Below, in pieces: positions 53,872 through 58,503 of a DNA stretch of 64,000 nt (position 1 is its first letter; every line of letters starts with the position of its first letter). The notes below the pieces were generated by a model. That model saw only the letters and a program-made list of their open reading frames with translations. It had not been told where the DNA came from and searched no databases. The stretch is from positions 1-64,000 of IMG/VR virus record IMGVR_UViG_3300037201_000018, one strand, 5' to 3'. This DNA is from a virus. Made by a program: the position numbers and the translations under genes.

Positions 53872-53966
53872 TAGAAATTGCGTGGCTAGGGTCGCTCCTG
53901 AAAAGCAGAAACCTCGCTGCCTGCCACGTAACTTTTTAATTGAGGGCTACTGGGGGAGTAGAAAAC
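53872..53966 (+). terminator. stem-loop in gap before the HNH-like gene
   Basis: CGTGGC at 53881-53886 and GCCACG at 53923-53928 form a 6-bp stem, followed by TAACTTTTTAAT. A possible terminator after the FkbM gene or a boundary of the mobile gene that follows. Confidence 0.4.
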
Positions 53967-54617
53967 GTGACAGAGATTAAGGACATTAAAGGACAGCGGT
54001 TTGGCAAGTTGGTAGTCTTAAGCTATGTCGGACAGAACAAGTTCAGGAAGGCCGAATGGAGGTGCCAATGCGACTGCGGTAAGACTACAGTCACAACAGG
54101 AGGCGGATTAAGGTCAGGCAATACAACTAGCTGTGGCTGTTACCAGAGAGAAGCTAACAAAACCCACGGTGAGTCACGAGTCAACAGTAAGGAATACAAA
54201 GCTTGGGGCGAGATGTTGAGCCGATGCCGGAACTCAAACGGGAAGGCATACCACAACTACGGCGGTCGGGGAATCAAAGTCTGTACTCGTTGGTTGTTAT
54301 TTGTAAATTTCCTAGCTGACATGGGCCGTAAGCCAACTCCTCAACACAGCCTTGATCGTTATCCAAACAACAACGGCAACTATGAACCCGGAAATTGCCG
54401 ATGGGCGACCAAAAAGCAACAGGACACGAACCGCAGACAGACGCGACTGCACACATTCAATGGTGAGACGCTATGCGTTAAAGACTGGGCTAAGAAATAC
54501 GATCGAAGCTACGACGTGCTACTGAAAAGAATCCAGTCTGGATGGGACTTCGAGAAAGCCCTGATGACTCCCTACAAAAAATACAAACTAAAAAGAAAGG
54601 AGGTGCACAATGGCTAA
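53967..54617 (+). CDS. HNH-like homing endonuclease
   Basis: 216 residues, GTG start after GGGGGAG. N-terminal zinc-like domain (CQCDCGKTT, TTSCGCY), then NYGGRGIKVCTRW and HSLDRYPNNNGNYEPGNCRW, the layout of HNH-type homing enzymes with this GRGI/NCRWAT pair. C-terminal helix-turn-helix (CVKDWAKKYDRSYDVLLKR). It ends over the start of the frameshifted radical SAM gene. Confidence 0.7.
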   Translation: MTEIKDIKGQRFGKLVVLSYVGQNKFRKAEWRCQCDCGKTTVTTGGGLRSGNTTSCGCYQREANKTHGESRVNSKEYKAWGEMLSRCRNSNGKAYHNYGGRGIKVCTRWLLFVNFLADMGRKPTPQHSLDRYPNNNGNYEPGNCRWATKKQQDTNRRQTRLHTFNGETLCVKDWAKKYDRSYDVLLKRIQSGWDFEKALMTPYKKYKLKRKEVHNG

Positions 54618-56721: not shown

Positions 56722-56899
56722 GTGGAAGAAAGACAATCTAGCCGCTGTAGTTGACGACCTCGTGAAAGGAAAGATAGATGAGCAAAAGGCGAGAGAAAGA
56801 TTGGCGGTAATCATTGACGAATACGTCGTTGAAGCACTACAAGACAGGGACCACAGCGAAGAGTCTGCATTACAGAGATCGTTTAGGAGAGAACTATGA
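56711..56899 (+). CDS. hypothetical protein, 62 aa
   Basis: Helical, charged (DDLVKGKIDEQKARERLAVI), starting before the previous stop and ending over the next start. No family recognised. Confidence 0.5.
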   Translation: MMSKWKKDNLAAVVDDLVKGKIDEQKARERLAVIIDEYVVEALQDRDHSEESALQRSFRREL

Positions 56900-58503
56900 A
56901 GGCAATACTTGTTGCCGTTAATTTCCTTGATATCCTGTCAATCACGCTTCCTTACAATCGACATCACTTCGACGAGGTCTGGATCGTCACGAACCAACTG
57001 GAAGTCAGCAGTCCCAAGATGATGCAGTTAGCTGCGGACAACCGAGCGACGCTGTTCGGGACCGACGCCTTCTACGAGGATCATGCCGTTTTCAATAAAT
57101 TCAAGGCGCTGGAGCAGGGACTCGACGCGATGGGAAGAGACGGTTGGTTATGTGTAGCACCCTGGGTCCCCGTAGAAGCTCCATTCGTTAAAGGCGCATC
57201 GAGAAAATGGTACGTCGGAAATCTGATCACGATCAGGACCGTCAGTGGCCGGTCAGTGTCCGTGACACCTGATCACAACTTGTTTACCTCTCGCGGTTGG
57301 GTTCCAGCGAAATCGATTCGCAAAGGAGACAATCTCTTTCAGGTCAGCAGTCCCGATTGTCTTGGGGCACCAGACGTACACCAGCGTCCACCCGAGATTG
57401 GTCAAATAGTCGATGCGGCGTTTGAGAGATCCGCGATGAAGAAGGTGGGGTCCGTGAGGATTCGTATGGATCTCAAACCCCAATTTCTTGACGACGATCG
57501 CGACGTCGATGTTATACCGTCTGACAGCGAATTGTCTGTCGACCTTGAACCGCTTCGACAGTGTGTCAGCGACGTCGCCTTCGTAGCGTCCGATGCAGAC
57601 CTGGTTTGCGTGTCTAGTCTTAGCGATCTTCGACGAGACCTTCGCGGGACGCGCTACGCCGGTACGCACAGCCCTCATCGCAGCGACCCGCTTAGCGACG
57701 GCCGCCGGAGAATCGTGAGTCGCCCTAACTTTACCGGCTTGGCTATGACTCCGTTGTATTATTCCAGACAGTCTGAGTTGCCTACTGATAACCTTGTCAC
57801 TTGTATCAAAAACAGCGGCGATAGTTCTCAAGCTATCGCCGGCCTCATAACGCCTGACGACGTAGTCTCTATCGATGCCATCCCGTGGTCTGGTCATGTC
57901 TATGATCTCTCTACGGTTCAAGGTTGGTTCCTAGCAGATGGACTTATTATACACAATTGCATCATGGACGCCGACGTCCTCTGGCCTAAAGACATTGGCG
58001 GAGTGATGATCGAGAACAGTTCCAACAGGAACTTGATCCTATCAGATTGTGGTTGCTCATTTACGTTTGGCTATCTTTACACTCCCAAGCGGCGGATGTT
58101 CACCAATCTCACGAAGCCAATTCCGCCGGAGTCCGAGTGGAAGGACTACCCCTACCATCACTACTTGGCTGAGTGGAGTGGCTACACCCAGATATTCCAC
58201 GGCAGCGACCCAGTCCTTCCGAATCCGCCTTGGCATGACACTTCGTGGTTACATGCTGGCGGCGGCGACAGCGGATTTCAGAGTCTGTGGCCACCAGACA
58301 AAAAGCTCCGTACACCCTTTGAATGCTTGCACTTGGGCGACTCGCTTAACTGGACAGGGAGAGTGACGAAATACGTCGACGGGTCTACTCCGCCGGGGGC
58401 CGAAGCAAACCGCCAGAAGCTGGTGAGGTTCCTGCACGAGCGAAGTCTGAAGGGCAGCAGGTCAGATCGCTACGACCACGAGAAGATACAAAGGACTGAG
58501 TGA
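56896..58503 (+). CDS. intein-interrupted glycosyltransferase
   Basis: Precursor of 535 residues: N-extein 1-85, intein 86-354, C-extein 355-535. Joined exteins (266 residues) read MGRDGWL then CIMDADVLWPKD, restoring the DxD metal-binding motif of a GT-A enzyme; N-extein VAVNFLDILSITLP, TDAFYEDHAVFNKFK and C-extein HDTSWLHAGGGDSGF are typical of a sugar transferase. Splicing is required to assemble the active site. Product is the last glycosyltransferase of the cluster. Confidence 0.85.
   Translation: MKAILVAVNFLDILSITLPYNRHHFDEVWIVTNQLEVSSPKMMQLAADNRATLFGTDAFYEDHAVFNKFKALEQGLDAMGRDGWLCVAPWVPVEAPFVKGASRKWYVGNLITIRTVSGRSVSVTPDHNLFTSRGWVPAKSIRKGDNLFQVSSPDCLGAPDVHQRPPEIGQIVDAAFERSAMKKVGSVRIRMDLKPQFLDDDRDVDVIPSDSELSVDLEPLRQCVSDVAFVASDADLVCVSSLSDLRRDLRGTRYAGTHSPHRSDPLSDGRRRIVSRPNFTGLAMTPLYYSRQSELPTDNLVTCIKNSGDSSQAIAGLITPDDVVSIDAIPWSGHVYDLSTVQGWFLADGLIIHNCIMDADVLWPKDIGGVMIENSSNRNLILSDCGCSFTFGYLYTPKRRMFTNLTKPIPPESEWKDYPYHHYLAEWSGYTQIFHGSDPVLPNPPWHDTSWLHAGGGDSGFQSLWPPDKKLRTPFECLHLGDSLNWTGRVTKYVDGSTPPGAEANRQKLVRFLHERSLKGSRSDRYDHEKIQRTE
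57151..57957 (+). mobile_element. intein at the DxD motif of a glycosyltransferase
   Basis: 269 codons. Cys1 at TGT 57151-57153. Splicing blocks are visible: block A region after Cys1, block B SVTPDHNLFTSRGW with T-x-x-H (His at 57274-57276), block F GHVYDLSTVQ, and block G LIIHN with the final Asn at 57955-57957, then Cys+1. No LAGLIDADG block is read in this strand. The 150-odd residues in the centre are Arg/Ser/Asp-rich and look like a shadow of the opposite-strand gene. Confidence 0.9.
57253..57897 (-). CDS. antisense homing endonuclease inside the intein (Vsr/EDxHD-like)
   Basis: 214 residues from ATG (CAT at 57895-57897); a TTG at 57921 gives 222. AGAGAG lies about 9-14 bases upstream. 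N-terminal helix-turn-helix: VVRRYEAGDSLRTIAAVFDT then VISRQLRLSGI. Nuclease core at about residues 125-190: FKVDRQFAVRRYNIDVAIVV, GFEIHTNPHGPH, RRIDYLTNLGWTLVYVW, the order seen in Vsr-like/EDxHD homing enzymes (Asp, Glu, His). It is codon-aligned with the sense frame: ATG is the complement of the block F His codon CAT, and TGA is the complement of the Ser codon TCA before block B. Its reading has natural composition; the sense strand there does not. Expression and activity are inferred. Confidence 0.75.
   Translation of the reverse strand: MTRPRDGIDRDYVVRRYEAGDSLRTIAAVFDTSDKVISRQLRLSGIIQRSHSQAGKVRATHDSPAAVAKRVAAMRAVRTGVARPAKVSSKIAKTRHANQVCIGRYEGDVADTLSKRFKVDRQFAVRRYNIDVAIVVKKLGFEIHTNPHGPHLLHRGSLKRRIDYLTNLGWTLVYVWCPKTIGTADLKEIVSFANRFRWNPTARGKQVVIRCHGH

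Follow-up and report, generated by a model that had tools for sequence, protein, structure and literature searches.

A phage intein with a putative homing endonuclease gene on its opposite strand represents a recurrent family of phage and prophage loci

Results

A 64,000-nucleotide stretch of viral DNA (the window; part of the 94,383-base IMG/VR virus record IMGVR_UViG_3300037201_000018) carries what is very probably a mobile intein with its homing endonuclease gene on the antisense strand, codon-aligned with the intein and spanning the intein centre as well as splicing blocks F and B. Inteins are commonly taught as a single polypeptide with an optional in-frame endonuclease, and those that lack one are called mini-inteins and assumed to be immobile. 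In the window, the minus-strand protein is predicted by sequence profiles and a structural model to be a conserved helix-turn-helix (HTH) and EDxHD/Vsr-like nuclease. Only one such antisense gene is present in the record, and the same arrangement recurs in approximately 100 examined phage and prophage loci. At the level of sequence, dual coding, the conservation of both proteins, and a patchy distribution of alleles are established.

The window intein and its host gene

The host gene and the sense-strand parts of the intein are located in the window as follows.

56896-58503, plus strand: host open reading frame (ORF) with the intein, 535 codons (ORF list), stop-free through 57151-57957
56896-57150 and 57958-58503, plus strand: N- and C-exteins, putatively glycosyltransferase-like; ten intein-less homologues align with the joined exteins
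57151-57957, plus strand: contiguous intein of 269 amino acids, Cys1 to Asn269 (Pfam Intein_splicing, E 3.6e-11; structural model; empty-allele junction)
57265-57285, plus strand: splicing block B, TPDHNLF, read from the sequence, opposite the C-terminal part of the antisense gene
57892-57912, plus strand: splicing block F, GHVYDLS, read from the sequence, opposite the start codon and ribosome-binding site (RBS) of the antisense gene
57955-57957, plus strand: terminal Asn (block G, HN), read from the sequence, with Cys+1 next at 57958-57960

An initial annotation, made from the sequence of the window, had described a contiguous plus-strand intein with Cys1, block B (TPDHN), block F (GHVYDLS), and HN followed by Cys+1, and the Pfam match bears this out. 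Blocks A, B, F, and G of a Hint domain, the position-1 residue, the terminal Asn, and the +1 residue are all present. An AlphaFold (AF2) model of the sense intein is a Hint domain with both ends confidently placed, and its best matches in a structure search of the PDB are inteins; the centre (residues 126-227) has a predicted local distance difference test score (pLDDT) below 50. The junction is exact, as 10 of 10 viral intein-less homologues (L104-L113) are gap-free across the site, ending in L/M/I-CIMDADVLWP. The insertion thus lies between L85 and C86 (GWL/CIMDAD, with the slash at the insertion site). Because these homologues place the junction three residues before DAD, it is outside the DxD motif, which the annotation had considered to be split. 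The annotation had also named the host gene a glycosyltransferase. Pfam and PHROG searches with the host protein gave no match, and this putative label derives from the motif.

The antisense protein

The antisense gene and its domains were assigned as follows.

57897-57253, minus strand: predicted antisense homing endonuclease gene, 214 amino acids, in the codon-aligned frame; ATG at 57897-57895, stop at 57255-57253
57769-57870, minus strand: HTH, residues 10-43 (Pfam HTH_38, E 0.0047; HTH families in many members; model helices)
57310-57588, minus strand: EDxHD/Vsr-like nuclease core, residues 104-196, with E106, Y128, N129, D131, and E142 (profile and fold)

The ORF begins opposite the block F His and finishes beyond block B, and its product is modelled by AF2 with a pLDDT of 92.5. 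A family profile built from the antisense proteins matches the PDB entries 3hrl (1.4e-6) and 3r3p, the I-Bth0305I catalytic domain (5.5e-5). A fold search with the antisense model also found 3r3p (probability 0.99, TMt 0.71), with modest Foldseek E-values. Y128, N129, D131, and E142 are invariant in 79/79 antisense members, and E106 is present in 77/79. Within the E-D-x-H-D signature, E106, D131, and E142 are conserved, and the H144 position is occupied by H in 18/79, with a WH-like motif after it in many. The record's own match to the family profile has an E-value of 5.8e-75, the window itself being a profile member.

Recurrence in phage and prophage loci

A tblastn search with the window minus-strand protein matched 23 phage records (best E 2e-26), all antisense under genes annotated as head morphogenesis, MuF, capsid protease, or hypothetical. 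Fourteen loci were examined in full and have the same anatomy throughout; they come from phages of Mycobacterium, Gordonia, Pseudomonas, Cronobacter, Vibrio, Edwardsiella, Idiomarinaceae, and Salmonella, an enrichment-culture virus, and the window. IMG/VR scans with the window intein or antisense protein as single sequences gave no relatives, which were recovered only by a profile. An initial 14-member profile proved too diverse for pattern searching; with the antisense-protein profile, 228 relatives were recovered from IMG/VR and 9 from GTDB genomes, and a set of 89 loci was assembled from these (80 viral, kept from the 228, and the 9 genomic).

The codon-aligned opposite frame is open across the match in 87 of these 89 loci, although one of the two IMG/VR search patterns falls within the stretch facing block B and might be biased towards inteins. 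In GTDB, the scan relied on the nuclease motif only, and the opposite frame is open in 8/9. Block B-like and block F-like motifs are found at the two ends in most of the 87 open-frame loci, and the other two antisense frames at each locus nearly always contain several to many stops. A full search of 794 genomes by hidden Markov model (HMM) identified seven with matches of E 1e-20 or better, two of them already known; every examined match of this search has an open opposite frame, including the HMM-only bacterial hits L124-L130. Among the genes interrupted by the EDxHD type are those for MuF proteins, a terminase-like protein, a UDG-DNA polymerase (UDG-PolA) fusion, and a dCMP deaminase, at its zinc site.

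Each of 60 sense inteins matches Intein_splicing, and 0/60 match any endonuclease family. Consequently, a sense-strand nuclease, as in an in-frame maxi-intein, was rejected, the centre also being predicted to be disordered. A split intein or fractured gene was rejected as well, because the sense frame continues uninterrupted across the intein both in the window and in 87/89 relatives.

These results bear on the rest of the initial annotation, which had described an antisense endonuclease inside an intein with no LAGLIDADG endonuclease at its centre, and had suggested searching metagenomes for relatives. Its 214-residue minus-strand protein with an HTH and Vsr/EDxHD-like core is upheld by homologues, PDB profile matches, and the fold match to 3r3p, and the nuclease-free sense centre by the 60 sense inteins. 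The metagenome search was productive, homologues of the minus-strand frame are numerous, and Hint models recognise the intein. The antisense architecture is supported, but its scope was understated: the gene belongs to a recurrent family and also overlaps blocks B and F.

Three loci (L054/L055 and L101) have one in-frame stop near one end of the tblastn match, which suggests truncation or decay at that end. A distant member, L102, has a sense ORF without the usual block F and with a different Hint-like N-terminal part, and is possibly a differently built intein.

Selection on both strands

The chance of such an open antisense frame in the window is approximately 0.0013, as estimated from neighbouring-gene codon usage. 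Among GC-rich relatives, the openness of an antisense frame is no proof by itself, since extended open antisense runs are also found over the exteins. Chance as the sole explanation was nevertheless rejected because of the homologues and the substitution pattern, while the open frame is still weak evidence in GC-rich genomes. Codons that would create sense stops (TTA, CTA, and TCA) occur 0 times in 20,513 codons of the antisense proteins, versus 405 expected.

For the substitution pattern, 34 disjoint pairs were each aligned in both the antisense and the sense frame. In the antisense-frame alignment, antisense position 3 (sense position 1) changes more than position 1 in 34/34 pairs; identity is higher in the antisense than in the sense frame for all 34, and for 867 of 869 pairs overall. 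The summed flanks have a normal sense substitution pattern. The sense-frame alignment is biased toward the opposite result, and the polarity is reversed there in 26/34 pairs. Dividing the changes at antisense position 3 by those at position 1 yields ratios of 1.29 for the HTH half and 1.28 for the nuclease core, but only 0.84 where the gene faces block F and 0.72 where it faces block B. Therefore, the constraint switches strand along the gene.

A Shine-Dalgarno-like sequence lies upstream of the antisense ATG.

57905-57909, minus strand: GAGAT, read from the sequence

Where block F has the usual GHxY, the antisense start opposite its His is almost always ATG or GTG. The block F His codon is CAT in 50/58 members versus 34% in exteins (p 5e-16), and the Leu codon is CTC in 45/58 versus 25% (p 5e-17). 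This codon choice creates a GGAGGT-like Shine-Dalgarno and an ATG overprinted on block F. A terminator-like hairpin with a 9-bp stem and T run is present at 57841-57816 (minus strand), approximately 56-81 nucleotides past the antisense ATG, and may be due to chance.

The antisense ORF might instead be a by-product of a functional sense centre, its conservation mirrored via codon alignment. Between codon-aligned frames, conservation on one strand does leak to the other, the antisense frame is often open by chance in GC-rich genomes, and a sense motif, FHGDG, is constrained in most members. Yet changes in the centre are concentrated at sense codon position 1 in every pair, the antisense product folds confidently in the model where the sense centre mostly scores below 50, nuclease and HTH homologues exist for the antisense product and none for the sense centre, and the RBS and ATG are overprinted on block F. 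A by-product is accordingly regarded as extremely unlikely. The FHGDG motif (alignment A5, residues 108-111) was identified as an extra sense-constrained motif by codon-choice analysis; it lies opposite the nuclease catalytic strand and is absent in the window.

The same analysis places block B under sense constraint, with the sense His retained in 79/79 members, Thr in 78/79, and Asn in 76/79. It is improbable in the extreme, if slightly less so than a by-product, that the intein is degenerate or non-splicing and is retained in the host protein in the manner of the ShiLan domain. Cys1, the block B T-x-x-H, block F, the terminal Asn, and Cys+1 are conserved, block B is strongly constrained, and an unspliced insert would be costly in hosts that include phage head and packaging genes, the UDG-PolA fusion, and the dCMP deaminase zinc site. 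A ShiLan-type insertion without a splicing domain was also rejected, as the splicing domain is present.

Alleles at one MuF site

In Gordonia phages with exteins approximately 97% identical, a single MuF site (HEVIN/CRCTML, with the slash at the insertion site) is found in several states. It is empty in Geodirt; Fosterous, Vivi2, and Angelicage carry a type A antisense EDxHD intein, and Keitabear a divergent type B. Nordenberg and Barsten carry an unrelated intein with an antisense LAGLIDADG-like protein.

L116:1071-1895 (Nordenberg): MuF-site intein with an antisense LAGLIDADG-like protein
L117:1056-1880 (Barsten): MuF-site intein with an antisense LAGLIDADG-like protein

Over the ungapped core of this pair, antisense identity is 0.938 versus 0.692 in the sense frame, with 43, 4, and 9 changes at sense positions 1, 2, and 3, respectively. 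The antisense protein matches PHROG 5046 (1.6e-15; annotated 'HNH') and, by tblastn, phage endonucleases (5e-7), with weak matches to I-MsoI. No Pfam match was obtained, and no relatives were found in IMG/VR with a single-sequence query. By sequence comparison, the LAGLIDADG-like proteins are a second, independent antisense endonuclease family with clear antisense selection.

Two of the 89 loci have free-standing members of the EDxHD family, which are located at the 3' end of MuF genes without an intein and are antisense to them (L096:2977-3672 and L089:2887-3852). These are plausible evolutionary intermediates, and would fit a scenario in which an adjacent endonuclease gene was captured. They also bear on whether the antisense gene could be a passenger, with a role in superinfection exclusion, marker exclusion, or another phage function, and not the homing enzyme of the intein. 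Vsr/DUF559-like nucleases do occur as separate phage proteins, as do these two members beside intein-less genes. However, the two still adjoin the usual host gene, the family occurs almost only within inteins, in host genes that are unrelated to one another, a patchy occurrence at one site between near-identical exteins is a homing signature, and an unrelated antisense endonuclease substitutes at the same MuF site. A passenger role is therefore considered unlikely, though less so than a by-product or a non-splicing insert.

Proposed mechanism

With an antisense-encoded homing endonuclease as the preferred explanation, the host transcript would be translated to a precursor from which the folded Hint halves excise the entire 269-residue intein, the centre of which is probably a disordered linker. 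A transcript of the opposite strand would yield the HTH and EDxHD/Vsr-like nuclease, from the RBS and ATG reversed within block F. Cleavage of intein-less host gene alleles by this nuclease, followed by repair from the intein-bearing copy, would spread the intein.

Splicing, antisense expression, and cleavage are inferred steps in this scheme, and several observations count against it. The window's own Shine-Dalgarno (GAGAT) is weak, with stronger ones (GGAGGT) in relatives, and the surroundings of the window's antisense start yielded no sigma-70-like promoter. The polarity is not reversed in 8/34 pairs when aligned in the sense frame. Additionally, the window has no close relative (best approximately 40% identity), and the polarity at the window itself therefore rests on distant pairs. 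Finally, the window antisense protein alone has only sub-threshold Pfam matches (MTES_1575, E 4e-4), and confidence in the nuclease identity thus comes from the family profile and model.

Another homing-type nuclease is encoded upstream in the same neighbourhood: an HNH endonuclease-like gene at 53940-54617 (plus strand; phrog_374, E 2.6e-66).

Comparison with known systems

On balance, the evidence leans towards antisense endonucleases in contiguous inteins being an undescribed, widespread dual-coding class. Such a class would have arisen at least twice (EDxHD/Vsr-like and LAGLIDADG-like), with the RBS and start overprinted on block F in the EDxHD family, and would have been built from endonuclease genes that originally stood free, in antisense orientation, next to the target gene. 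Its members are counted as inteins because all testable intein features are present and only the in-frame endonuclease is absent. Literature searches, which left out bioRxiv 2025.01.02.630785, found no published description of an antisense endonuclease in an intein.

If apparently nuclease-free inteins can carry an endonuclease on the other strand, surveys of the host frame only will miss their mobility. The family would also be a strong example from nature of proteins fully encoded on both the sense and the antisense strand, in which two functionally unrelated proteins share the same codons and the constraint switches strand. The Gordonia phages, with empty and filled alleles and three kinds of antisense intein at one site, make the system directly testable.

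Maxi-inteins such as PI-SceI and the Mtu RecA intein likewise have a Hint domain at both ends, an internal endonuclease gene, and a patchy distribution at conserved sites of important genes. However, their endonuclease is in the same frame, strand, and polypeptide, whereas here it is on the opposite strand, is predicted to be translated separately, and overlaps the splicing blocks. EDxHD/Vsr-like homing endonucleases such as I-Bth0305I share the nuclease fold and the conserved acidic residues, as indicated by the 3r3p profile and fold match. To our knowledge, these enzymes are free-standing, intron-encoded, or located between split-intein genes; Dassa is said to have described fractured genes with EDxHD/Vsr-like homing endonucleases in 2009. 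The present family differs in that the gene is antisense in a contiguous intein and encodes an HTH at its N-terminus.

Two further systems have hidden or opposite-strand endonucleases. In a phage methylase, an out-of-frame HNH endonuclease is similarly hidden in a second frame of an insertion that is open in the host frame (PMC11855218), but neither a splicing domain nor an RBS was detected in that insertion. Antisense homing endonuclease genes (HEGs) are known in group I introns, for instance I-DsqI (PMC9548176), which are also mobile self-splicing elements with a homing endonuclease on the opposite strand. In contrast to the inteins described here, I-DsqI belongs to an RNA intron in nuclear ribosomal DNA, with its HEG in a peripheral paired segment and no overlapping protein coding.
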